From contig NW_026570236.1 of the NCBI RefSeq assembly GCF_019649055.1, positions 186,001 to 250,000 on the forward strand: a DNA stretch of 64,000 nt. The letters run 5' to 3'. The notes beneath the pieces are model-generated. The model was not told the origin of the DNA. It searched no databases and saw nothing but the letters and a program-made list of their open reading frames with translations. A program made the translations under genes and the position numbers. Of this stretch, positions 248 to 63,400 are shown piece after piece (position 1 is the first letter of the stretch; each line of letters starts with the position of its first letter). This stretch comes from Paramacrobiotus metropolitanus (lineage: Eukaryota; Tardigrada; Eutardigrada; Parachela; Macrobiotidae).

Positions 248-3200
248 GGGTATGGCGCCCACTGAAGCGGATTTACGCTATTTGGAAAATGCTAAACGTT
301 TGGCGTTCTATGGCATCGATCTACACAAGGCCAAGGTAATGCTAATTAATCATAATTCACCTGGTTGCGTGCCTGGTAATACAGATAGCATTGTATAGTC
401 ACTCTCACCGACAGCGACAGGCATTAAACGACATTAGAAAAAAATTCAGAAAAATTCATTGTAGATTCGGAATTTAATTTAGCAAAATATTTTAGGATAA
501 GGACAATACAGACATCAAAGTGGGTGTCTCTGCCAGCGGAATCCATGTGTACCGCGGCAATCTGCGAATTAATCGTTTCGCATGGCCGAAAATCCTTAAA
601 TTATCGTATCGCCGTTCGAACTTCTACATTAAGATCCGCCAGATGGAGTTTGAAGATTCGGAGAAAGAGATCCAATTCAAGTGCCCCTACGAGAAGGCGG
701 CCAAACGGTTGTGGAAAGTCGCGATCGAGCATCACACGTTCTTCCGTATGCGCAGCAGCGAAGAGCCCAGTGATTATTCGACACTGCGCTGGCCGCGTCT
801 GGGCTCCCGCTTCCGTTATTCGGGCCGCACATATTCGGAAGCCAAGGCCAGTAGTGAGAAGATTGACCGCCAACAGCCGGAATTCCAACGAACATGGAGC
901 AAACGCAATCCGTATAGCGTCAGCGTTGATGGTATGCTGGAAAAATTCGCTGCGTTAGCTGTTATATTGTGCCCGAATGCAGTGCTGGTGTTTTTCTGTT
1001 TATTGATTTTGTTGCCGTTTTGGTACTTGGTTTATAGTAGATCGATAAACACACGTGGTGCTTTTTTTCTCTCCAGGATTAAATCAACAAACCACTTTAA
1101 CCCACCGCCAGCAGTCCCTGGATGGTACGGGACGCCCGGTGTCCGTATCGGACTACGAGAGTCGACGCCGTGAATTGGCTAATGGATCGAACAATGTATA
1201 CGATCAGCCGATCAAGGGCGGGCGGGTGGCCATTGCCGAGGGAGCACACGGTGGTTATGGATATGGAAGCGGGGCGGGCGGTCTGGGAGACCGAGTGTAC
1301 CAGACAGACTACACGAAAACAACATTCCATGATGATAAGGGAAGTCCCACGGGTGGAGGGGCGCAGCTGTTGACGAATAATTCCGTTACCCAAGAGGTAT
1401 GTTGTGCAACCGTATTTGCGGGATAATTTATCACCCGAAATGGCAAATTAAGTGCCCCCATAACAGGCCAGTAATAAAAAGCGGTTACAAAAATTTATTT
1501 TCCTACTGAGTTCATTCGGTTCTTTTATCATGCTGGTTTGTGCAATTTGCTCCTCTGATTTTAAAGAATGTCTTTGAAACGAGTTCTTTATTTGGAATGC
1601 TTTATTATTTCTTTTGATGGAATGATTTTCATTGTGAATGCATTTATTTATGTACCTGAGTTCCTTTTGATTTGGAATGTGCATGCCTTTTACCGTCTGT
1701 GTTTTGTGTTCGTTCCACCACTCTAGTCTCGCACGACGGTGGGCGGTGTCGGTCCTGATGGTCTATCACGTGGCTCGTCCGTCTTCTCCTCGCCGGACGG
1801 CACACTGAAATCCCGCACGGAATTTGAATACATTCCCAATGCTTCGTGGCGCGGCCGTGATGCCGATTACCCGAGCAGTCCCACATCCGGCGACGGCCGG
1901 GGTTATGATTTGGGCGGTCCCTACCGGGGCTACGGCGATGGCCGGGGCGCCTATTCTCCCACATACAGTACCGCGGTTAAGAACTTCGGATTGGACGGCG
2001 AGGGTAATCGCAGTCCAGGGGGAACACTGACCGTAAGTGCATGAAATTATGCTGGCATTAGGCTTGTTGTGGACGGTCGGGTTGCATGCGCGCGCGCGTC
2101 GGCGCTCTCTCTGATTTCAGCATGGGATATTTGTTTGACTTTGAATTTCAGTTCCGTTTACTGATAAGACATGGCTTGTTGGGGGCTGTAGTCGGTGTAG
2201 GTAGTAGTGCGCCGGGGTGGTGTTGACATAGGAGCGGGTAAACATTTTGTCCGGCGTTTACATTTACATTGTAAGCCCACGGGGGACGTAGATTATTGTG
2301 CAAATAGTGGAATTTATCTCGTCTACTTGAGCTAATGCAAAGGCCAGTGTGTTGATAGTGCGGTATTGTGTTACAGTCGACCCGGTATAATCGACAGGAA
2401 TATTATACGAATGCCGATGGTAGTGGCGATGATGCGACTAAGGTGGGCTAATTTATTATAAATTTATTTAATTTATAGGCCTGTTTTTAATTGTTTTTTA
2501 TTTATAAAGGTGTTGAAGATTCCGGTGGGCGGTGTTGGAGTGATGACCACGACGTACGGCAATGTGACCGAATACACAACACGTACCAAAACGACCACGA
2601 GTACAATTAAGAGCACGATCGAGAAGTATCCCGGCGCTGGTGGTGGTCCTGGCGGAAATGTAAGTTGACAATGTTGGAGAGTGTTGCTGCTCTGGAAATA
2701 ATGGTTGTTTTTGTTGGTTGGACAGATGGATAGCACGACGTTAACGACGCGATCCATCAACGGACCTTCCATGTCGCCTAGTGCCAGCGATCCACTGGGC
2801 AGCCCTAGGCGACGCACCGAAACCCATCCGTTTGGTGCAACGGCACCCAACGTAGTCAGCACCAAAGTGAAAACCACCGAAACCACCACGGTACGAAAAA
2901 TAAATAGCTTTTTTTCACGGAGTTTGTTAAGGGTTTTTGCTGAACTAATAGCGCCAGATATTGATGTATTTAATTAATACATACCTTATTTGGTATTGAT
3001 TTTTGATAAATGACGTTCGCACTGTCTCAAATAAATATTCATCAATTATGTACTGTACTCGGCTTACTCATTATGAGAAAAGAAACACTGCGAAATAATT
3101 CATGAGAACTTTGAAATGAAATATATTTACACGTAAGGCTATCTGGCAAATATAGTTGTTGATGTTCGTGGTGTTGTAGTTCGAAGTGGATCGTAACGGT

Positions 3201-18059: not shown

Positions 18060-19935
18060 TTATGGGATGAGCACGATTTTCCCCTTGGAACCTCCGGTAT
18101 GCTGCATAACCGCCTTGTGCGCCTGTAACATATGCACCTTGTAGTTGTAGCCAATATACGGTACATACAATATAAATACTACTCGGTAGCACAACTTAAG
18201 TAATAGCAACTGGGCAAAACTTGCTTGACGTTTAATTATTTAACTTGTAAATCATACCTCAGCGGCTTGATTCAGAGGGAATTCCTGGTCAATAATGGGC
18301 CTAACCCAGCCCTCATTGATGCCCTTGACCAGTTCGTCACCAATCCGCTTCCACTCTTCATCCGTGGACTTCATCAACAGTACACCCACACACATAGCTT
18401 CCTTGCCCATCATGTACACCGGGCTGCACTTGGCTTCCCCGCGACTGCCAATAATCACGATACGACCAAACTCCGCTACCACTTCAATATCGGTTCCCAG
18501 GTTCTCATTGGCCAGCATCTCCAGGATGACATCAAATCCTTTACCACCCGTTGCATCCTGTGACAAGAATCTTACAATATAGACATATGCAGTTACTGAT
18601 TACCGACACGCGTTAATTCAACAACAAAATGAAAGGCAAAGGTTAGCTGGAGAAGTGTACGGAGAGACTCTTACCATTAGATTTTTCTTGTGATTCTTAT
18701 CGTGATGGTCAAAAACGGTTGCGGCTCCGTTGTCGCGGATGAGTTTTAGTCCTTCTTCCGTACCCGCTGTTCCGAATACCTGCATCTTCCATGCCGACGC
18801 AATCTGACAAGCTGCTAATCCGACTGCGCCTGTAACAATCCAAAGCATTTGCAGTGCCGGTTTGTAAAGGTCATGCTTCCGACAATAGGTCTTAGTATCA
18901 TACCACTAGCGCCATGAACGAGCACAGTTTCATTGGGTTTAGCGTTTGCCCTGCAACACAATATCATTCACATTAATTTATGCTGTTTGAAATAATGGAT
19001 TGGTGAGTTGGCAATGACGTTCCGGTTGCCGTTGCATACTTTATCATAAGACACCGTAGAGCGGTCAGATACGGTATACCTAGGGCGGCGCCCTGGCTGA
19101 AGGACAGAACATCCGGCAGCGGGAAGACATTACGCACCGGCACCAACGCGTATTCAGCATACGCGCCCGTCAGCGGGTCAGCGCCTTCGCACGTAAACAC
19201 CCGATCACCCACCTGCCCAATTGTCAATTACTAAAATAACACTACCATTTTTTAACATACATACAAATGGAATTAATTTTTGAAATACGATTATATCCAC
19301 TGTAACAGAAACAGCAGCCGTACTTCAGCTGACTGTATACCGCAAAACGTCTGTGATTTGTGGTTAGATTAGTGAGTACGTACCGCAGAACTTATCTGTC
19401 AGTAATACAGATTTCTGTCAGATTTATGTTATATCATAAATATAAATTTAATTTTTTCATTTTGAAAACTGAGATAAACGTGCATGCAGCCTTTGCCTTA
19501 TTGCGAACGGCTTACTTTAAATCGGCTTTCGCCGGCCGGTACTTCTGCTATAACGCCGGCTGCGTCGCCACCCATTCCCATCGGCAACGTATAGGAACCG
19601 AAATGTCCTTCCCGGACATAAACGTCCACGGGATTCACTCCGGCGGCTTTAATTTTCACTAGCACCTAATGGCATACGGTTACTGCATGCCAGTGCATGG
19701 TACAATTTATAATATCGTAGCTTTTAATGGTAACCCACTTCAAAATAATTGTACCCTTAAAGATATTTTGGCCTGCCGTTGTATTATTCTAAGCTTTTTT
19801 CTGATATGCATAATGCATGAATTACAAACTCACTTGTCCCGGTTTTGGTACTGGCCTGTCCATCTCCTCAAGTGTCATCACTTCGGGGCTCCCCAACTTG
19901 CTAACCTTAATCGCTTTCATTTTGTTTGCTGCCAT
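18060..19935 (-). CDS. CRYZ: NADPH:quinone oxidoreductase, zeta-crystallin type
   Basis: Zinc-independent medium-chain dehydrogenase that reduces quinones by one electron using NADPH, in the cytosol. Exons on the minus strand: 19935-19834, 19665-19516, 19212-19055, 18950-18904, 18829-18675, 18557-18258, 18122-18060; 324 residues, the usual family length, all phases consistent. Key segments: MKAIKVSKLGSPEVMTLEE (start), KIKAAGVNPVDVYVREG, GDAAGVIAEV, VGDRVFTCEG, the nucleotide-binding loop GASGAVGLAACQIA, GTAGTEEGLKLI, FDVILEMLANENL, GRIVIIGSRG, and the end HTGGSKGKIVLIP. The AxxGxxG motif (ASGAVG) is intact. It is the convergent neighbour of NFAT and divergent from the P450 at 21.6 kb. Confidence 0.95.
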
Positions 19936-21556: not shown

Positions 21557-24500
21557 ATGATGCAAACATTTTTGGGCAAAGCGTTATCAGAATTCTACAG
21601 TTTTCCAGCTCTGATATCCTTGATTGCTGTACTGCTAATGTTTTGGTTCGTTCTGGTTGGTCGGCCAATGTTCGCTCCCCCCGGGCCGCTAGGTTGGTAT
21701 GCTGTTGCAGCTGATAAAGTGATCGTTTCCTTTACACTTTTTTCTTTTACCCAATGTGTATTAATTTTTCATGCAATGCGCATTGTTCGCCTAAGTAACC
21801 ACACAAGGTAAAGACAATTACTACTCGTAAAGTTTGTGTCAGCATCGACTTTGATTGTAGTATAAAGCATTTAAATAAGTTTATAATTGAGTTAATAAAT
21901 CAAGGACAGGGACGATCAGATAGTTAGATAACCATAAAATCAGTATGGTCTAAACTGATGCTTGTAAAATGTTTCTAGCTGCCAATAATTTTCAGCCGTA
22001 CAGCGTCTAATAATTATTCGTTTTCTCACCGTTGCCCCTAAATTATTGCTACGTTTATCATACAGGAGTCCCAATTTTTGGTTATGCACCATTTGTGGGG
22101 AAGTATCCATGGATCGCTTTAACAAAACTGAAAGAAGCTTATGGCCAGATTGTCGGCTTATATCTCGGGTCGAGATTTGCTGTGGTCTTGGAAGACTACG
22201 ATACAGTACACACGGCATTTGTTGATCAGGGCGATGTATTCGCCGGTAGAGGAGAAAATTTTGTCCTTGAAAAGATGGCAACCGGCAAGGACGGTCGCGG
22301 AATACATGGTAACCCAATGGAAAATATATGATTAATATCTGTTCTACATTTTCGGTGAAACTTATGGTTAGTACGAGTAACAATGCACTAATAATGATAA
22401 TGGAAAGATGTAAAAAATTCGTCTGGAAAGTCTGTATAAAATTCGTATAAATTTGTAGGAATTACCGCAATGGAAGGTCCAAAATGGAAAGACACCCGTG
22501 AATTTATTGTGACCACATTGCACGAACTGGGCGCCGGTCAAGGCAAACAGAAAATGGAGAAGATCGTCCTGGATGAAGTTGACCGCTTATCGCGCACCAT
22601 TGCAGCGCACAATGCATGGGCGTTCAATCCACGGACGCTTCTCCGCCCAGCCATGGCCAGCATTATGGCGATGGTGCTGTTTAGCCGGCGTTTTCAGTAT
22701 GAAGGCGATGAATTTCGTTGTCTTATGGAACATATGCCCGACGCCATCGGTGCAATGGGAAGCGTGACCATTAATGCGTAGGTGCAAATTAAAAACTGTT
22801 GCTAAATATTAAAATATATATGCAAACAGATGGTATTATTCCGTGCTCTCTCATGAAAAAAATAATCATTTGAAACTTAACTAATCATGCACGCAGATTC
22901 CACTGGTTGCGGTATATTCCGGGATGTTTTAAAAGACACTGGAACGGCATGATACGCACTGTCGACAATTTGCGGGCATTTGTCGAAAACGAAATGACCA
23001 ATCGAGAGAAGGAGATGGAGTTTACCTTGATTGAAAATAGCACTAACAAGGCTGAACCAAAAGATTTTCTGGATGCGTACTTCCGGCACATCAATAGTGA
23101 AGGAGCCAAACAATCTCTTGCTATGACCGGTAAATATTACTATTATTACTATTATTATTAGTAAATATTACGAGTAATTAATTACTCGTACAATTATCTG
23201 TACGGTTGAAACGTTTTAAGTACGTAAGCGTAATACCCACAAAATACGTACAGTATATGTGACACTAGAACAAGTACGGTGTATACTGTATAGCAAAAAC
23301 AATACATATGTAGCTGCAGTTTTTGCTTCTTACGTTAATTCCGAACTAAATTAACATAATTTTATATATTAGTGTGCACTTATTGAATAAAATTAGTCTA
23401 CGAACTGAGACGCATGTGGTAAAAGCGCGTGGTTCACAGCGCACAGCTCCTCCTTACGAATACTTACGTTACAACACATGTACATCCGGTGATCACTCAC
23501 TAAGCACCCAAACATGTATATTTATCCACTAGCATAAAACTTGAATTCTTCTATAGTTTTTGTAAGAGCAATAAATTTGTCCAAATAGTTTATGTTCTTG
23601 AATCCGAAAATTAAAAAAAAGATTTTGTCGCTTTACCCGCTTAGTGATAGGTTGTCGGCTTGTGTTTGCCAGCGGATAGTGACATATTTGTTTTGCATAG
23701 ATGGAAATGATTTCGTTGCTTCCGCTTCCACAATGTTTATTGGAGGCACGGAATCCACTACGCTGGGTCTACAATGGCTGATATTGCTGATGTGCCGCAA
23801 TCCAGTGCACCAGCAAAAAATTCAGGAAGAAATGAACAGAGTTATTGGCCACAAACGCTTTGTTGGTTGGGATGACAGAGGTTAGCATTAAAATAATTTT
23901 CTCGATTATTAGCAAAGCTTCAGGTTTCTGTGAAATTTTAAATTTAACGCTCTGGTTTGAATAAAGTTTACTTTATGAAAGTTCGACAGTTGTAATTGAG
24001 AGTGTTATTACAGCTGCTGGGTTGATGGTAGATGATTTGCCGTTGACTACTGCAACGTTTCTGGAGTGTTTAAGACTGAGCGGACTAAGTGCCGGGAATA
24101 TCCCGCGTCGCAACTTGGAAGCAACGGAACTTTTGGGTTATAAAATTCCGAAACATTCGTTAATTTTTGCAAATATTTGGTCGATACACAACGATCCTCA
24201 GTATTTTCCTGATCCACTGGCTTTTAAGCCCGATCGATTCCTTGACGGCGAAGGCAATGTTAACATCCCAGACCAATTTATGCCCTTCTCAATCGGTATA
24301 CATATTTTCAAATGCTATGCCTGTTTAATTTTTTCATTAAAAAAAACTTGGCAACAGTATGGTTTCGAAGACTAAAAAAGCATTTGTTGAATTTCAGGCC
24401 AGAGATCGTGCCCAGGTCAAGCGTTGGCTCAGATGGCTTTATTCCTGACCTTTGCTAATCTTGTTCACCGATTCGAATGGAAGGAGCCCAAAGGCGCTAC

Positions 24501-25130: not shown

Positions 25131-26825
25131 TTACAAAGATTCGTAAGCCCGATGTTTGTAGGGCATGCACATGTAGGCCCGCTGCTGGAGTGTTGCTGTT
25201 GTCAATAAACTGAAAAATGAACAGTGTAATGGTTAATTACATCTTATCTTTTAATTTCAGTTGTTTTTTAGCTTCAGGAAAATGCAAATTTTAGAACGAT
25301 ATACAGTACATAAATATTATATTGGCGTTACTTCGAATGCAGTACTTACAAGTAGGACATTGGATCATACAGTTGTACACAGCACTCAACGCCTGGCAAT
25401 CACGAAAACTCAATCGGCCCGCGTTATATATCGTTCGGCCATTCCGAGCCGAAATGACCGGAAGACCTCCTCTGACACTGTAGTTTGTTGGTTCAATCAT
25501 GGTTATAGAATTATAATCAAAATCTGTGGCGTTGAACTGAATAAGGCGTGGATCGTATTCCGTGAATGCTCCAATCTGAACAGCCGCTATCAAAATGATT
25601 TGTATGTTGAAACAACGCCAATATTTTTAAATTTCATAAGTATTAAGTAACTACAACATCTGCTAATAAATTACGCCCCACAGTTCGAGATTTCAGAGAT
25701 AATGTGTTTAAAAAAAAGCCATTTTTTTGCTGCCTAGTTTGTACCTGGATGGATAAGTTGGGTGTTGAGCTGCAGGAATAAATCTCGTCCCGGCTTGTTG
25801 TGCTCACTGCGTAATCCGAGAAGGTCGCAGAAAAATCGCATAACTTGCCGCACACTGGACAGACATCCATTGGGTCCGTTCATGATGGCCATGTGCTGTC
25901 CATATGTTGTGGGCGGGTTGGATAAGGGTAGCACTCGGCCCGGAAACGAATAGCAAGTTGGAGATGGCACCCTAAAATATAGAATATCATGTTTTTGAAA
26001 TTGTTTAGCCAGTCACGATTTTCTGGCGCCAAACCAACCACGGCTTTGTTAATTTACGAAGTTAACTAAGTCATAATTAATTAGATAAAACATTTGCTAA
26101 TAAGATAGCGGGAATACCCTGAGAATTTTTATTACCCTGGTCCACCGGTTGGAGAAATTATAACGAAACTTGTTGCTGCAGGTATTGGTCCGGCACCCAA
26201 ATCCGTAAAACGGATGCAATTGCCCATGTCTGCCTGAATTTGAGCGGCAGCCATCCGGATAGTGTTGATTTCCGCCTCACCTGTTGAAATCATAAAATGT
26301 CAACATTTCGTGCAATGGGTCCATTTATGCCACAAATAAAAAAGGGAAATAGTTGTTTAGTAAAACTGATAGAACAAATGCATTTTATTTATTACAAAGC
26401 TTGTTTAATTAATACGCAAAAATCCGGATATTCGTTCCATTTATGGTGTGTCAGGTCCGGCCCAGCTAAACTTTCTAAACATTTACCATAAAGCTTTTAC
26501 ATCTAATCGCTTGGTAGAACTCACTTTTGTGATTTGTTACATCAATATGTGGTTTTTATTACTAGTACATAAAATAGCATTGTCTTATCTATTTATTAAT
26601 GCATTATTGTTGGTTTTTTTTACGTAAAATAATGCATTGAAATAATAATTCTTTGTGCTTAAAAGTTATTAAAGCAGACATACTGTAACCCGGAGCGATT
26701 ATGTAAGGAACTGTATTTCCAGGCCATTTGGAATATCGAGTGTCAGTGGAAACCACGTATCCCACAACATCCTGCCAAAGCACGTTTGCGAAAAAAATAA
26801 TACAGCTAATCCTTCCACGAACCAT
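25131..26825 (-). CDS. Astacin-family protein lacking the zinc-binding site (pseudoprotease)
   Basis: M12A astacin-fold secreted protein. Exons on the minus strand: 26825-26684, 26280-26136, 25971-25745, 25586-25350, 25195-25131; 271 residues, all phases consistent. The start encodes a short hydrophobic leader, then the mature-domain N-terminus with WPGNTVPYII. No propeptide is seen. Next come EAEINTIRMAAAQIQADMGN and CIRFTDLG. The family zinc motif HExxHxxGxxHE is replaced by RFFCDLLGLRSEH: all three histidine ligands and the catalytic glutamate are gone, but the tail EHNKPGRD survives. The Met-turn SxMHY region reads FDYNSITMIEPTNYS. The end matches astacin (LSFRDCQALSAVYNC). The open, spliced frame argues against a dead pseudogene. 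The final exon (acceptor at 25196) is less sure. Confidence 0.82.
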
Positions 26826-27960: not shown

Positions 27961-28852
27961 CTATTGCCCAGTACATTTCTGATCGGCCACACAGCCCTCT
28001 GTGGAAAACAGGAGAGAAAGTGAACAGGATGATATAAATAATGCAAGGGAAGTTGGGAAGAAAAAAAGTGATGTTCGCATTCCCACTTACGCTCATTACA
28101 GCAGATACCATCTGCTGCACAGATTCCTTTATCATTCTGGCCGCAACTGCTGCCCTGATTGTAGCATGGCGTGCGGATGTAGTTCTCCTTGACACACACC
28201 GCTGTCTCCTCTGTACCCATCAGACAGCCAAATGATTCACCGCAGCAAATGTTCGAACCGTAGCAGTGACCTTTTCCACCAGGACCACATTTCATACACT
28301 GTCACAAACAATTCCTGTTAATTATTCGCACTTACCCTTTATTATCGCAATAGTAGGTTTCCGGTGTGAGTTTTACTTACTGAACATTATGTATGGCACA
28401 CCAATATTAATCTGGGACCTTTAAATGCTAGAAAGTTTTTTAACCAGGTGTACAATTAATCCTTTCATGTATTGTTCTTTGAATTAAATAATATGCATGC
28501 GCTATGATTTTAATTTCATGCAAGAATTAAGCATGCCAAAGAGAGGAAATGTGCCGAACAAATTAGTCAAATTTTAGGTGTAAGAACGTTATGAGAAAAG
28601 CATAATAAAAGTATATCAAAACGCGCTGCAACAACTCGTATTTTAGGTAGTTGAAGCGACATCCGATATGATCTAATCCTGCGCGCGCAACCGAAGCGCT
28701 ACTGAGTATCATACCTGTCTGCGATAAGGACTGGGTGCAAAACTGTAAGCTGACCTTTTACCACCCGGTGGACAGTTCGTGATAAAGCAAGCAAATGATC
28801 CTTCCATGATAAATAAACACAGAAAAACACCGCAAAACATAAGACTTGCCAT
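27961..28852 (-). CDS. Oxytocin/vasopressin-type (inotocin-like) neurophysin precursor
   Basis: Neuropeptide prohormone. Exons on the minus strand: 28852-28715, 28298-28091, 27998-27961 (TAG); 127 residues, phases 0 and 1. Residues 1-21 are a signal peptide (MASLMFCGVFLCLFIMEGSFA). Residues 22-30 are the nonapeptide CFITNCPPG, followed at once by the amidation and dibasic cleavage signal GKR. A 13-residue spacer follows, then neurophysin with all 14 cysteines (CMKCGPGGKGHCYGSNICCG ... GICAADGICCNEQGCVADQK). The three-exon layout, with cuts in neurophysin, resembles that of vertebrate genes. The Thr4-Asn5 core is arthropod inotocin-like, while position 8 is Pro rather than a basic residue. No copeptin follows. 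The short third exon was found only by splice logic. Confidence 0.96.
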
Positions 28853-28945: not shown

Positions 28946-28953
28946 TTTATATA
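28946..28953 (-). promoter_or_regulatory. TATA box of the neuropeptide gene
   Basis: TATATAAA on the minus strand, about 95 nt upstream of the precursor ATG at 28852. The spacing allows a transcription start near 28920 and a 5' UTR of roughly 60-70 nt. Strong TATA promoters are common for peptide-hormone genes; use here is inferred. Confidence 0.5.
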
Positions 28954-43727: not shown

Positions 43728-45420
43728 TCAGCAGCGCGATGACTGCGATCCGCTCTCAGACATCGTACCAGCCGATAAGCGGCCATCTCTTCCCAAACCA
43801 AACTTCTTACGAAGTTCCGCATCGATCATCTCGAATGGCTTCCCTTTCGTTTCGATCGATGCAAAATACATATAAACTACTCCGACTACTGTACATCCCG
43901 CAAAAACAGCAAAAATCCATTCCCCTATTATAACTTCCGCGATGGGGGCAACGAAGATGGTAACCAACGAACCCAGATAGCAGAAGGCAGTTGTTATGAT
44001 CATCCCCACACCTCGCGCGTTGGCGGGGAACAACTCCGGCGGCCAGATCCACGGGACACTGGCCACTCCCAAGCTGAACGATAGCATGAAAATTAGTAGC
44101 GCGGATAAACTACCGTACGCAAACGCCGACGAATAACCGGACAGTTGGATGAAGATGACAAGGCCTAGACAAGACACCGCGCATCCGGCACAGCCAATCA
44201 GAAATAAGAGCCGTCGGCCAGCGCGCTCCACTAGAAACATCGACAGCACGGCCCCGAGATTTTGCAATCCAACAAGCGAAATTGATCCGTAGAGAGTGCT
44301 AGTTTTGTCCAGGCCAGCGTTTGCCAAAATGGACGTAGAGAAGGTAATCACGACAGAAAAACCAGTGAGCTGCTGAATCACCATCGCCATAACACAGATA
44401 TACAGCGTCTTGCGAAGGATCGTAGTTTCGAACAGTTCAATCATGGAAACCGAGGCTTTCTCTGCGGATCTGTCACATTCCAGCTGTATTTCATTGAGCT
44501 CTTCTTCCACTTTGTCCGTGTTGCGCAGCCACTGCAAGGAATGTCTTGCCTCTTCGTGGCGTCTTTTGGACAGCAGGTACACCGGACTTTCCGGACAGAA
44601 CGGCAGCGTTGCAAAGGTGAACACCACACCGATCAGTCTGGTCCATGTGATGAACGACCATAAATATTCGTTGCCCAGGACATTTGGCAAGCTGACCAGG
44701 ATGGCCGTCAGCATGCCCAAATTGAAGGTTATCACGGGTGCGCTCTGCATGGCGCCGCGAAATTTTACTGGACTGACTTCGGCAATGTACACCGGTACGA
44801 AGATCCCGATCAATCCATGGAATAGCCCAAGCAGGAATCGTCCCACAATGAGCAACGTGACTGATTCAAAAGCGGTGCAGAGACTGCAAGCGACCGTTCC
44901 CAGCACGGCAATAATGTTCACCAAATAAATGGAATTCTTGTTCCCTATGCTGGCCAACAAGAGACTAGAAGGCCAAACTCCAACAAATGCGCCTAAAACA
45001 AAATGCAAAAAAATTTAAGCGATCCCTAAAAAGGGTGTCAGGTAATTATTTGCTTTGAAAACAAGAGGAAGAATTATTCGGCTTTTGCTTGGGTGTTGGG
45101 TCATAATACTGACCAGCTGATAGAACAGATCCGATTATGGCCCACAAAGTGCTGAGTTCCGTGTTGTGCGCCAACATTGTATCCTCATCTCCGGGAGAAA
45201 TCTCTCGGCACCAAAGGTTGTTGTAATCGGTTTGATTGTACGCATACAGGGTGTCGTTTTGCGCGGCATGCTCATTACAACGGACTTGTCGAATCCATCG
45301 TAAAATGACAAACTGCGGGACATTGACGGAAGTGACCAGGTATCCCATTTGGAAATTGTTACCGAAACATGTGGTGAACACTAGATACAACAGCCGCAAC
45401 GTGCAACCACCGGACTCCAT
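43728..45420 (-). CDS. GLUT-type (SLC2) facilitative sugar transporter, first copy
   Basis: Twelve-helix major-facilitator sugar uniporter in the plasma membrane. Two exons: 45420-45114 and 44992-43728; 523 residues. I chose MESGGCTLRLLYLVF as the start because it sits directly before TM1, although the frame stays open further upstream. Loop 1 carries IRQVRC and N-glycosylation sites (NDT, NQT). SLC2 motifs: GRFLLG before TM5, PVYIAEVSPVKFRGA, PESPVYLL, QQLTGFSVVITFSTSI in TM7, ERAGRR, PWIWPPELFPANARG in TM10 and ETKGK at the end. Compared with classic GLUTs, TM7 has QQLTGF for QQLSGI. Substrate (glucose, fructose or trehalose) cannot be told from sequence. It is related to the second copy at 49-54 kb on the same strand. 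Confidence 0.92.
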
Positions 45421-49089: not shown

Positions 49090-52000
49090 TTATTTGTAGC
49101 GCGAGTGCAGTTCCGTCTGAATTTCTTCGAACGTTTTGCCCTTTGTTTCTACGGCATGCGACCAGACGAAGAGGGCGAACAGTCCCGAGCAAACGGCAAA
49201 GGCCGCAAAAACCCACTCATCCATGGCGGCATGGAGAATGGGGAACAGGAAGACGATGGCGATGCCGGCTAAATGACTGCACGTCGAGACGACCATCATC
49301 GCTACCCCACTGGTCCGCTTCTCGAACATCTCTGATACAAGGATCCACGGCACAAATGCTGGCCCCAAGTTATACACGATCATAAACACGAGAACGCATC
49401 CGATACTGATATATCTGGAAAAAATAAAAAGCATTAAAAAAAGACATTAAAAAGGTAAAAAAATATCTGGAAATTATGAAATTGTTAAATTATGTTACTG
49501 GTATTTTATTGCTATCGTTAGGTTTCAATCGATTGGAGCACAGAAAACTGAGAAAAGATATTTTTATGCAACAAAATTTCAAACGTAAAAGTATCTCTGT
49601 TACGTGTCGCAGCAAACGTCAGTTCTAAAAGTATAACTGAAAAGGTCACCAGTGTTAATTTTTGTATCAGGATTTATATTATTGTAATCTCCGCATAATA
49701 AACTTATAAAAATTTCTCAAATGACGTACGTTGTAAATTATTGTGGTATAATATGATTTGACTGGATTAGTTAAGAAAAGTTCTTATATTCTTGTGTTAT
49801 GGAATGCCAATGCACGCGAACGTGAATTATTCTGGTTTTTTTAACTGCTTGAAGTCCAAAAAACTGCGGTACTTACTGCGCCCCTGGGTGTTCCTCGGTG
49901 GCATAGGTCATGGCTCCCACCATAGTCCCATTGGTGAGAACCGCCCCGGCGTATCCGATGACCAGCAGTATTTTCCTGCCGGCTCGATCCATGAGCAACA
50001 ATGCCGCTAGCACGGCTATTATCTGTAGACCCATCAACCCCACGGTACCCCAAATTGCATCCGATTCCGGCAACCCGGCAGCGGTAAATATCCCGGTTGA
50101 ATACACCAGAAAGGCTCCGATGCCGGTTAACTGCTGGCTGAGGATGATGATACACGAAAGAAAGACGGTGGAACGGAGCAGTGCATTGCCGAAAAAGCCG
50201 GTAATGGATATTCCTTCTGGAGTATCGCCGTCGTGGTCGCGTTCCGTTAGGATCATTTTGATTTCGCCGGTAACATCAGATTTATCACGTAGCCATACCA
50301 GTGCTTTCTTGGCTGATTTTTGGTCGCGCTTATTAATGAGCAGAAAGCGTGGGCTTTCGGGAAAGAAGGGTAGTGTTCCCCAGAGGGAAAAGTAAGGAAC
50401 AAGAAGGACAAAGGATAGATACGGCCACCACTCGGTAGTACCTATAAAAATAACATGCGTAAAAATTTTTAATTCGAATGTAGCTCAACAGTAGTATAAC
50501 TTCCAGAAGCTTTACTCCAGTTCGCCTATCTCTGTTTAAATTATTTATTATTATTTATTTATTACTAACTTTTAATTTCACTTTGGAAAGAACTTAAAAA
50601 AATTTTTAAAACACAGAAACTAAAATCATACCTAAGAGTTCGCGAAGACCAAATATGTTGGCAATAAGTGTGCCGGTTACCAAAAACAGCCCCGGTATTG
50701 TGCCCATCATTCCGCGCAAATTTGAGGGGCTGATTTCGGCAACATACAAAGGAACAATAGCAATAGCTAATCCTATATTCATCCCGATGATGATGCGGCC
50801 CACAATGAGCACTTCGAATGATGCAACCAATCGGCATATCCCTGATAGAACCGCTCCCACAATACCGAAGATATTGGTAAATAACAGCGTTTTCTTGCTG
50901 CCGTGTGTATTAATGAGGTAGTTCATAAACCACACGGTGATGCAGGAACCCAACGGCATAAGGGATGCCACCAGTGCCCAGATTGTGTTTAACTCGGTGT
51001 TGGATGCCAGAAGGTCCGCTTGACTAGTGCCGTCGATGTTACTGCACCATAAGGTGACGTCATCGGCGTCTTCGCTAAAAGCGGCAACTGTTCTGTAAAA
51101 GAAACACAAAATTACATTTTTTTCTGTTGTACGCTAGCGCGCGATGATTTCAATCGCAAGCCTAATTGGAAGATTTGCAAAGCTTAACTTGTGAGAACAT
51201 AAAAAATATGAATTAGAGCAGCGAATGACCAAACCGGAAGCCCGGCGCCACCTTACCTTACGGCCTTCCGTATATTTTATCTTAGTCCGATTGTGAGCTT
51301 TATGCATTACACGTATAAAATTATATTGCCAGTCACACAACAGCTCCGTGGCAAAATTATAATAAATGAAACCACATAAGGTATGTACGGTAACTGTTGA
51401 AGTAAACATTTTGAAAAGTTCGACTTTTCTGTAAGTTTTTAAGGTCAAGTAATAAAATCAAATTTTATTAATTATTTGACACTATACTCCTCTTTCAATC
51501 GAGTATCCATGAATGGTGTTTTTGAAAATAAATTATATATGGTTTAGCGTAATATACACTACTCAGTTGCATTTTCTACAATTTATTTCCCGTATTAAAC
51601 AGTTATTCGACGTATCCGTCGCAGTGGTTTGTTTGTCTACGTTTGCAACTGAAAACCCATTATTTTATTGTGTGTACAGGAAAGGTCGTTTCGCTTGAGT
51701 AGAAAAACCGAAAAAGTAAGTACAGCGTAGCATGCCGATATACAACACACGACTATATCTTACACGTATACGCATGCCAGTCTTTGTTCTTTGGTGAAGA
51801 TTTCGATAAGACATTTGTGCGCAAATGCTTAAATATTTATAAGTAGTGTACTTATTTGGTATTCACTTACATCTATTAGGAATAAATGGTTGTAATGAAT
51901 AAATTAAGTAAGGTTACAGCATATTTCCAGCGGCACTAGCGCAATAATTAATTTATGCACAATTATTGGAATCCTGTGCTAAGCTTTTGCGTGCACGTGT

Positions 52001-57231: not shown

Positions 57232-59617
57232 ATGCCTTTCTCTAAATTAGATCACGCTCAAGAGCTGACACTGAACAGCGGACATAAAATCCCCGTTATC
57301 GGCTTAGGCACCTGGCAGGTAGGATAACATTTTTTTTACCGGCTCAAAGGATTAATGCGATGTAGCACCACAATTTGCTTGCATATACGTTTTCATCTAA
57401 TTTGCATTAATACTGTTATTTGCATTGAAAAAATTTGCAGTCGAAACCGGGAGAAGTGCAACAAGCCGTGGAAGATGCCATTGATTTGGGATACCGGCAT
57501 TTTGATTGTGCTCTGGCTTACGAGAATGAAGGTGAAATCGGTCAGGCTATTGCCAAGAAAATACAAGAGGGTGTCGTTACCCGGCAGGAGCTTTTTGTTA
57601 CCACTAAAGTGAGCGAGAATTCGTTTATGCGTCATAAATTATGCCATATTATTAAAAAATAGTTAAAAATAATTTTTTAAATGAACGTTTTTGAATGCAT
57701 TCCGGTAATTTTCCAGTTACCTCCGGTCTTGATCGAGCCAACGTTAGTCCGGGAAGGATTCAACACATCATTAAAGCGCCTTGGTCTGGATTACGTCGAT
57801 TTGTATTTGCTGCACAATGCTATATCCATCAACCGTGACTACATCAAAACACTGCGTAAGCCGTAATGTCTACATTGATAACATTAAAGTAAGAATCAGG
57901 GGAAAAAATAATAGTTATATGTATTATCAACAGAGTGCATGCGAAGTAGGATGCTTATATAAGCGACTATGAGATTTTGTAACTGTATTCATTCTTTTTA
58001 ATAGCACCTGGATCCGTTTTGAAGCGCCCGGAAGACCCGAGCAAATTTTTCCGGAATGTGGATCACGTTGCTGTCTGGCATGTACGTGAGGCATTACTGC
58101 TTTAATTACATAAGTTATTGTTTTTAATCGCGGATAGCAGTGATTTGTTTAGCACACAAAAAGCGATGCTTACTGCATAGTATTATGATATTGATGTTCA
58201 GGATTATTTGTGCTATGAACCGACAACCATTTATAATAATTATAATTGTATACATACACTGTTCTGATTTCACCTTTTTTTGATCGAATATTTTAAATCT
58301 GAATATTTTGACATTTTCAAAACCAATCGCCGTACTTCGTAGTCGTAATCGCGCTCAGGTTAAACCTGGCAAATACCTAATTTGGCTAAACAATATAAAC
58401 ACAACAAACGTAATCTACATCGGTGATCGGTCGATTAACAGGAACTGGAAAAATTAGTGGACGAAGGTCTAGTGCGCAGTATCGGCGTATCGAATTTCAA
58501 TCAACAACAACTGCAGCGTCTGATCGATCATGGCCGCATCAAACCAGCCGTTTTGCAGGTGAGCGCATATGTCAGCGTCGCGGACTTCAGTCCAGCCGTG
58601 TCTGATAGCGGTGTTCTTGACCTTTGTGGTGTTATTGTTGACTGCAGGTGGAATGCCATGCGTATTTCCCACAACATGATCTGCTGGCGTTCTGTCAACG
58701 CCATCACGTCGTTCTGGAGGCGTATTCGCCGTTGGGTAGTCCGCAGCGATGGGGCGGAAATGCCAGCGGCCCCGTGCTACTGGAAGATCAGGTGAACTAC
58801 GAGAAATGTCTAGTTGGCACACACCAGCAAAAACGTGATCAACACAATATTTACTAAAACTGTGCAGTATTAATTCAAACTAAAGCAAACGGTTTCATTC
58901 ATCTATGTATCAAGCCATCGCTGACTGACTTTTACTAGAATGCTAAGAAATCGTAGTATAGTGGCTTGTTCCGCTTGAGGCAATCTTTAATAACCGGCAC
59001 ACGCTGGAGTTGTATCGGTTAAAGGTTAATTAAAGCGCATTGCGCAGTAAACGTTTCCTACTACTTTTTACCTGACATGTGTAAAAATGCATTCAAGACG
59101 TGTAAACAGGCTCTGTTTTAGTTCTTAGGTTTACTGTTTAAGTGTTAACAGGTTTTAACGGACATAGCCAAGAAGCATGGCAGAACACCGGCGCAAATTT
59201 TGCTGCGTTCGCTCGTTGAGCGCGGCGTCGTCGTTCTCCCGAAATCGGTCAATAAAGTCAGGTTGCAACAAAATTTGCAAATCTGGGATTTCCATCTTGA
59301 TGATGATGACAAACACAAAATGGAGCACATGGGCAAGAACGGAAAGCGGCTGATCGACTACGCGACGTATGTATATGTCGCTGTTGATATCACGTTATTT
59401 GCGTTTTTTGAGTTACTTAATTAAAGTTTGCATAGTAGGAAAAGTCTCATATTATAAGTACTGTAGCACAGTACAATAAATAGTTAGGGTTGACATTTTT
59501 GGTTTTTCTAAGATCTTCTTTGACGTACAGTTGTTTTTCTTTCATGGCTTTAAAGACTGCCTTTCTCATTTTAGATGGGTCGACTCCCCAAACTATCCAT
59601 TTCAGGCGCTGCTGTAA
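57232..59617 (+). CDS. Aldo-keto reductase (AKR1-type)
   Basis: NADPH-dependent carbonyl reductase, a TIM-barrel cytosolic enzyme. Exons: 57232-57318, 57441-57608, 57717-57855, 58005-58081, 58442-58558, 58648-58791, 59152-59366, 59575-59617; 329 residues, all phases consistent. The catalytic tetrad is complete: Asp in GYRHFDCALAYENE, Tyr in the same motif (LAYENE), Lys in LFVTTK and His in DYVDLYLLH. The usual His-Trp-Pro of AKR1 is His-Asn-Ala (LLHNAIS). Family signatures also present: LVDEGLVRSIGVSNFN, VECHAYFPQHDLLAFC, LEAYSPLGSP and the cofactor motif VVVLPKSVNKVRL. The C-terminal exon gives NYPFQALL, the conserved YPF tail. It is a convergent neighbour of the second P450. Confidence 0.95.
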
Positions 59618-60465: not shown

Positions 60466-63400
60466 TTAAATCGGAATGGATGATCCGCCGTTCTTTTCGT
60501 GATGGACATGACCGTTGCGGCTGGTGTGTCGGGGAACGAAGACACACTTGTAGGGCCAGGTGGTGCGCGCTAAACCGGTTGTGAAGACCTCGGAGGAGGC
60601 CGGGCATCCTTCGGCTTTGCGGAATTCATACTTGTGCAGCATATTAGTCATGTACAGCCAGACTTCCATTTTGGCCAGCGGCTCACCGTTGCATAATCGT
60701 TTACCTGTAGGGAACGTACAATTATCAAGTATGTATGCACTGGAATTTTCGAGAAACACAACGATGCAGTATTATCATTAAGGTTATACCAATAATTTTG
60801 TTCTGCACTGTATGAACCGAAATTGGCTATGCATCAGTATTATATGAATGCGTCATTATATTAATAAAAAAATCATTTTTATAGCAAAATAGCAACAGGT
60901 TTTATAGCAACAGTTTTTCGGCCACGAAAAGCCGCATGAATCAGTTACTGCCTCCTCTGATTCCAAATCCAGACACAATTCGTAGAGCAATGGTTGATTC
61001 AAAAGCTGTGCAAGCATACCACGCAACTTAAAGAACACTCAAATTGCACAAAGCTAACGCGACTTTTTTGTTTTTATTGATTACTGTTACTATAGTGTTG
61101 AAGTCCAGCGTTTTATACTCGTACATTGCACTTTGTGCTTAGATGTGATTAGTTAAAATTACTTGCGTAGTTTACCAATTCCGAAAGGCATGTAGCCGGG
61201 AGGTGACTGCTTGACGTTGCCTTCCTTGTCCAGGAAGTGTCCCGGGTAGAATTTGTCCGGGTGCTCCCAGTAGCGGGGATCACGGTGAATAGAGTAGACA
61301 CTGGCACTCAGGAGACTGCGTTTGGGAATTGTGAAGCCGTCAATGGTCATTTCCTCCAGATTCTGATGGAATAGACCGAGTGGCACAATGGACGCCAGAC
61401 GTTGGCATTCCATGAGGGCGGCATCGGTGTACTTCAAGTTGGCTAAAATTTTAAACCAGTTAATAATCTTTATTTTTTAAAACGATTATTACCATCCAAA
61501 TTGATGAAATTTGGACGATTTGCAGACACTTTTACTCCGACATACCTCGGTCTTCCATACGAACAAGCTTATCCGGCTCCACAATGCTATCGATTTCAGC
61601 TTGGATCTTCTTCTGCTCTTCGGGATTTTCCAGCATGTAGAGGAAACACCACAGCAGGGTGGTGGTGACGGATGCTGTTCCCGCGGTGTACATGTTGATC
61701 ATGGAATACAGCAGCTGGTCATCTGGACAGTAAAATCACACAAATAAGATTCTAGACAAGTTTCGCGTTTCTTCCAAATTACACTCGGTAAATCGCGCGC
61801 GCAGTCTTTAGCCCTTGTTTAGCGCCCGGCGAAGTCATTTTCCCAAGATTGACTAAATACACTAACTGAGCGGCTAATCCAAGTAACTTATTTTGTGCAT
61901 CAACACCAGTGGAAAATTACCGTTCAATTAGAAATCCTTAATTAAATGGTCGATAAGTTCCACTGAAGCTTCGTATAATCAGTGACCTTTACGTACCGGT
62001 AAATGTATTATTTGGTTCGCCCTGATGCTTCTTAGCCTCCTCAAAGTAGCTGTCCACATAGTTCTCTGGTGTATCCGACTGGATGGAATGCTCCTTTCGC
62101 TCCTTGATACGTTTCTCGGCAAAGGGCATGTAGGTGCGCCAGTTGTTGTAAAACTTGTTCCAGTTGGCTTTGTACTCGGGAATGATGTGTTTGATCCAGG
62201 GATACAGGTACACCGGCGTCAGGGGCGGTCCCAGCAGACGGGTGTTTTGGGCGAAAGCCTCGGTGAAGCGGTTATACTCTTTGTCGTTGATCTCGTAGCG
62301 TTTACCAAAGGCCAACAGTGAGACAATGTTGGCGGTAAAGTGTTCGATGTAGCCGCGCGGATCGACGGGATCCTTGGCATGCTTGGTGAAGTAGGTGAAG
62401 TTGTCTTCGATCTCGTTGAGAATGGTGTCCTGCAGCCAGGATTTGCCCAGACCGTAGTCGCGCAGCGTGCGCGTCATGAAGCGGCGGTGTTCGCGCCATA
62501 AATCACCTTCCGACTGCTGGATACCTGCAATCGTTAGGTTCTTTGTGTGATTGTGTTGCCAAAGCTTTATAATTTCATGGTTATGTCTCTATAACGCTTT
62601 AAAAATAAATAATTCGAGTGCGTGACATTTGTATTTAAGTAATCATTTTCAGGACAATCATGTCGGCCGTGCCTAATTCTTTTATTATCACGTGTTATAT
62701 CCACTCGTTATGTATCTTTAGAAAGCGTCGTAGTGTAATGGCAGCACGTACGAGCCTCCCACTGAACTTGTGCAGCCTAACGTTGCAATTTTAAAGGATT
62801 GGATTTGAGCTTTATAATTTTTTGCAGATAAACAATAGAGTATGTACTTATCTTGCATTGCACTTACATTATCGATGAACTGATATCAATACACGTACCT
62901 CGCCCTTTGGCAAAAGTGTTCTGCGGGTAGTCAGGATCGCGACCGGTTGTGATTTCTTCGTTGAACATCTTCTTGGCGGTGTCGAAGTCGTGCATGACCA
63001 CCAGCAGTTTCGGTCCATATTGCACGCTCACCGTATCGCCGTATTTCTTGCTCCATTTGGCAATGGCGGCAGCGGGATCCGGGAATAATTGCGGCAAATG
63101 CCCGACAATCGGCAAAGCTAAATTCAAACAAGAAAAAAGTTTCTATATTAAATAAGAGAATAAAAAAGAAATTTGTATAATAAGTATAATGCACTGTAAT
63201 ATTTATATGCGCATGCAGACGGCGCCGAGATCACACATTTTTACTAAGTCTTGACGCTCGAATGTTAAAATGTTACTGATTTTAGTTATTTACTGCAATA
63301 CCGGTACAAAAATTACTAGAATCGTCTTACCAGGTGGTCCAGGTGGTAAATTCTTTGGAAACAGTTTCCGCAGTAAAAAGAACGCTGCCACCGCTAAGCA

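Follow-up and report, generated by a model that had tools for sequence, protein, structure and literature searches.

The minus strand of the 64,000-nt window analysed here (the whole stretch of DNA under study, bases 186001–250000 of contig C16) carries what we read, with a probability of roughly 95%, as a vasopressin/oxytocin-type neurohormone gene of the eutardigrade Paramacrobiotus metropolitanus, the only one found in this genome, with a proposed amidated cyclic nonapeptide and two receptors. The anatomy of the gene, its family membership, its occurrence as a single copy (within the reach of the searches) and the presence of receptor exons with family motifs were established at the level of genomic sequence. 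The gene is the expected tardigrade counterpart of a known hormone, and what is new is only its sequence in this host.

The coding sequence extends from the start codon at 28852 to the end of the stop codon at 27961. A complete oxytocin/vasopressin precursor in three exons had originally been predicted at 27961–28852, with no strand given; these limits proved exact for the coding sequence, and the three exons (28852–28715, 28298–28091 and 27998–27961) splice into an open frame. The splice model was obtained by trying GT/AG combinations within set ranges, an open frame and four neurophysin landmarks being required; one combination among those tried satisfied both, giving a spliced coding sequence of 384 nt (127 amino acids and a stop). 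The features of the gene, in the order in which they are read on the minus strand, are as follows.

TATA-box-like element TATATAAA, 28946–28953, minus strand: 101 nt before the start codon; the evidence is weak, and the element may be due to chance.
Exon 1, 28715–28852, minus strand: 138 nt; leader MASLMFCGVFLCLFIMEGSFA, CFITNCPPG, GKR and the start of neurophysin to ...RRQ; found again as residues 1–47 in the genome search.
Nonapeptide CFITNCPPG, 28763–28789, minus strand: 27 nt; coordinates by counting from the start codon at 28852.
GKR amidation/cleavage signal, 28754–28762, minus strand: directly after Gly9.
Intron 1, 28299–28714, minus strand: 416 nt, GT-AG, phase 0; falls after Gln, immediately before the first cysteine of neurophysin.
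Exon 2, 28091–28298, minus strand: 208 nt; neurophysin core with 12 of its 14 cysteines.
Intron 2, 27999–28090, minus strand: 92 nt, GT-AG, phase 1; after CysCysAsnGlu and one base.
Exon 3, 27961–27998, minus strand: 38 nt; end of neurophysin with the last two cysteines (GCVADQKCTGQ) and the stop codon.

The splice donors read GTATGA and GTAAGT, and a pyrimidine tract is clear at the second acceptor and weaker at the first. The nearest AATAAA is located 531 nt past the stop codon and may be there by chance. Exon 3 contains no copeptin-like extension.

Of the 18 cysteines in the precursor, 14 belong to neurophysin, and the leader and the nonapeptide have two each. The leader is hydrophobic (9-residue mean hydropathy up to 2.94) and ends in SFA before Cys1, which makes it a predicted signal peptide, called by hydropathy alone. 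CFITNCPPG has the Cys1, Cys6, Pro7 and Gly9 expected of vasopressin/oxytocin-type nonapeptides, and the expected glycine and dibasic pair are found in the GKR lying immediately 3' of Gly9. The precursor matched Pfam PF00184 (Hormone_5) with an E value of 1.4e-25 over profile positions 1–79 of 79, and bovine neurophysin II with an E value of 1.5e-22, all 14 cysteines being aligned in register; given these two matches, the first of them over the full profile, membership of the family is far beyond chance. The ENY segment of bovine neurophysin was kept in the alignment, as was Arg-Gln before the first cysteine; we take ENY to be Glu47-Asn48-Tyr49, part of the neurophysin hormone-binding pocket. 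Nonapeptide, GKR and 14-cysteine neurophysin were present in the translation and intact, as had been predicted. Also upheld was the description of the peptide as inotocin-like at Thr4-Asn5, with a Pro8 that leaves position 8 without charge, both of which can be read from CFITNCPPG directly.

The position of intron 1 is apparently as in vertebrate genes, judging from a coelacanth primer for a product with a complete second exon, which starts CTG CAG TGT (PMC2315648). Intron 2 apparently shares both place and phase with its counterpart in human AVP, to judge from a human exon 3 primer that includes TGCTGCAACGACGGT (PMC8440291). The tardigrade gene thus resembles those for vertebrate vasopressin/oxytocin precursors in its three exons, its 14-cysteine neurophysin and, apparently, both intron positions, whereas it differs in having no copeptin, a Phe2-Ile3-Thr4 ring and Pro8.

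By analogy with the family, the precursor would enter the secretory pathway, where the neurophysin domain would keep hold of the nonapeptide while folding and granule packing take place. Processing would then consist of cleavage after GKR and of amidation by way of the extra glycine, and would yield cyclic, disulphide-closed CFITNCPPG-NH2. The targets of this peptide would be two V1a/oxytocin-type G protein-coupled receptors (GPCRs) that the genome encodes on a different contig, a pairing that we again infer from the family.

PF00184 had a single match in the whole assembly (169,799,020 bases in 533 contigs), a size in line with the published figure of about 170 Mb for the P. metropolitanus genome (PMC13389832, PMC11191345). 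A search of the genome with the full precursor found nothing beyond exons 1 and 2 of this gene, even with an E-value cut-off of 10, and no second hormone gene was found in this way, although a miss in such a search does not show absence.

A receptor-motif query gave 22 matches in the genome, and the sequences of the best 12 were extracted for closer reading; two of these best 12 of 22 resemble vasopressin/oxytocin receptors, both on contig C18 (L004 at position 1561054 and L008 at 1106654). For L004 the best solved structure was the vasopressin V1a receptor (2.1e-28), followed by oxytocin and V2 receptors, while the first receptor outside the family scored 5.1e-07; L008 was assigned by motif alone. 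Two motifs, PQx2Wx5-6F and CxNPW, are described as separating vasopressin/oxytocin-type receptors from CCAP receptors (PMC5153645). A longer piece around L004 (L018) contains PQMIWDITWRF and CTNPW, and the corresponding piece around L008 (L019) contains CSNPW and a first motif completed across an intron, PQM/AWDITWRF, which was joined by eye. Read as exons only, at least two receptor genes in the same genome appear to carry the diagnostic motifs of the family.

These observations bear on two other readings of the locus. That the gene is a pseudogene or silent copy of a hormone gene seems to us most improbable, since the frame is open, the splice sites, the processing signal and all 14 cysteines of neurophysin are present, no further copy was found, and the receptor exons of the same genome are open as well. 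Contamination of the tardigrade assembly by a crustacean, mite or other animal sequence might be suspected from the identity of the peptide to a crustacean one. However, the gene lies inside the long contig C16, flanked on either side by genes of animal type (P450, sugar transporter and others), several of them exon-split; its neurophysin match is the only one in the assembly, which also contains the matching receptor exons, and such a set of hormone and receptors has been reported in tardigrades (PMC7181382). A crustacean, mite, copepod or myriapod as the source of the genome, which the peptide taken alone would suggest, is likewise countered by the CAHS and trehalose-6-phosphate synthase matches given below. 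We consider it highly unlikely that the sequence is foreign, and treat the gene as the tardigrade's own vasopressin/oxytocin-type hormone gene in what follows.

The claim that proline at position 8 is rare in invertebrates did not hold. According to Table 1 of PMC5153645, CFITNCPPG is the second commonest peptide among arthropod precursors (32 of 121), the commonest being insect CLITNCPRG (57 of 121); counting from the same table, Pro8 forms sum to 34/121 and forms with a basic residue at position 8 (Arg, Lys or His) to 73/121. A review records Pro8 for two crabs, one centipede, one mite, two tardigrades, the scallop Mizuhopecten, the annelid Platynereis and a Sepia precursor (PMC7181382); in the published tardigrades, Hypsibius and Ramazzottius, the peptide is CFVTNCPPG and there are two receptor genes (Koziol 2018, as summarized in PMC7181382). 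The string CFITNCPPG itself occurs in six papers of the literature searched, PMC7181382 among them. With Pro8 in 34 of the 121 arthropod precursors and in both published tardigrades, this residue is not rare; it is commonly found in this branch of animals, and tardigrades were already known to have it.

A scenario raised with the original prediction, in which position 8 would be Arg, Lys or Leu in related species and Pro8 would be a sequencing error, fared no better: both published tardigrades instead have Pro8 (PMC7181382), and for a peptide that so many animals share a sequencing error seems very unlikely. Alternatively, Pro8 could be a genuine replacement specific to one lineage, the related inotocins carrying Arg, Lys or Leu, and could alter receptor choice. 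It does remove the charge of insect inotocin (CLITNCPRG in 57/121 arthropod precursors; PMC5153645), but a residue common to both published tardigrades, crabs, a centipede and a mite, quite apart from its overall frequency in arthropods, leaves a lineage-specific origin with very little probability. Pro8 as a shared state is the reading we retain; it corrects the impression of an exotic Pro8 and leaves established views unchanged.

Compared at the level of the mature peptide, the published tardigrade CFVTNCPPG is like that of Paramacrobiotus in Phe2, Thr4-Asn5 and Pro8, and likewise comes with two receptor genes, but has Val3 where Paramacrobiotus has Ile3. This one difference seen from the published tardigrades makes the predicted peptide identical to the arthropod CFITNCPPG of crabs, the centipede Scolopendra and others. 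In the mud crab Scylla paramamosain, where the identical peptide is likewise accompanied by GKR and a 14-cysteine neurophysin and was used as a synthetic amide (PMC7178253), the precursor is 158 amino acids long, versus 127 in the tardigrade. Insect inotocin, CLITNCPRG, has the same precursor plan and the same Ile3-Thr4-Asn5 in the ring, whereas the tardigrade peptide has Phe2 for Leu2 and Pro8 for Arg8.

The comparison with the Pro8 oxytocin of New World monkeys that accompanied the original prediction seems less apt. The ring of the monkey peptide is Tyr2-Ile3-Gln4-Asn5, unlike the Phe2-Ile3-Thr4-Asn5 of the tardigrade, and because the rings differ in this way the likeness looks superficial.

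Since it is identical to the arthropod peptide, CFITNCPPG may reasonably be proposed as the hormone of the panarthropod ancestor, on the basis of few species. A broader proposal, to which we give somewhat less than an even chance, is that CFITNCPPG is that ancestral hormone, that Val3 in hypsibioid tardigrades and Arg8 in the inotocin of insects are derived, and that the peptide and its two receptors could take part in water balance at entry into or exit from desiccation. The water-balance role in tardigrades is, for its part, a guess; a review has proposed testing desiccation resistance in view of work in ants (PMC7181382). A tardigrade peptide equal to the arthropod one, together with two receptor genes, makes vasopressin-type signalling testable in a desiccation-tolerant animal. 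Among the papers listed from the literature searched, in which subscription journals were thinly covered, none was by its title a study of a Paramacrobiotus vasopressin-type peptide.

Other neuropeptide loci were seen in the course of this work. Two AKH-type precursor genes encode QFNFSPNWGKR after the leader and have different flanks (L002, G000:C2:2750239-2750264; L003, G000:C22:204574-204599); as a string, QFNFSPNWGKR was not found in the literature searched. The SIFamide core PFNGSIFG, searched as an exact DNA-coded pattern, had no match in the genome, and may vary or be intron-split. Among the receptor pieces read, L005, L006, L009, L010, L012 and L013, and also L007, L011 and L014, looked by eye like receptors of the AKH/GnRH/corazonin group; nine AKH/GnRH/corazonin-like receptor genes, if true, would amount to a sizeable expansion.

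Within the window, cytochrome P450 exons flank the hormone gene on both sides, at 22440–24372 (plus strand) and 61992–62588 (minus strand). Sugar_tr transporter matches were found at 43731–45014 and 49876–50484 (both minus strand), one of them a 428-residue open frame, and a weak astacin peptidase match covering the end of the domain at 25294–25626 (minus strand, E 1.5e-05). FERM C-terminal and FERM-adjacent domains at 496–1170 (plus strand) presumably belong to a band 4.1/coracle-like gene. Zinc-binding dehydrogenase and aldo/keto reductase matches are located at 18255–18599 (minus strand) and 58439–58792 (plus strand), respectively.

Elsewhere in the assembly, no match was obtained for mitochondrial COX1 or for Hemocyanin_M, where again a miss does not show absence. 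A piece of a CAHS protein, used as the query, gave 18 genome matches at E values up to 0.001, some of them pieces of one gene, the best having an E value of 3.4e-56 and 67% identity; an in-frame stop was present in 3 of the 18 matched stretches (the matches include L020 and L021). CAHS genes are reported from all eutardigrades and are seemingly absent from heterotardigrades (PMC13389832). PF00982 (trehalose-6-phosphate synthase) had seven matches, distributed over the three contigs C67, C84 and C208. Taken with the CAHS matches and the genome size, these indicate that the host is a eutardigrade, most likely P. metropolitanus or a very close relative; the trehalose marker would not suffice by itself, since Ramazzottius also has a TPS-TPP gene (PMC8277472). 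In Paramacrobiotus sp. TYO, which from its strain name and from the citation of the same paper in PMC13389832 and PMC11191345 we take to be P. metropolitanus, three TPS-TPP genes have been described (PMC8277472).
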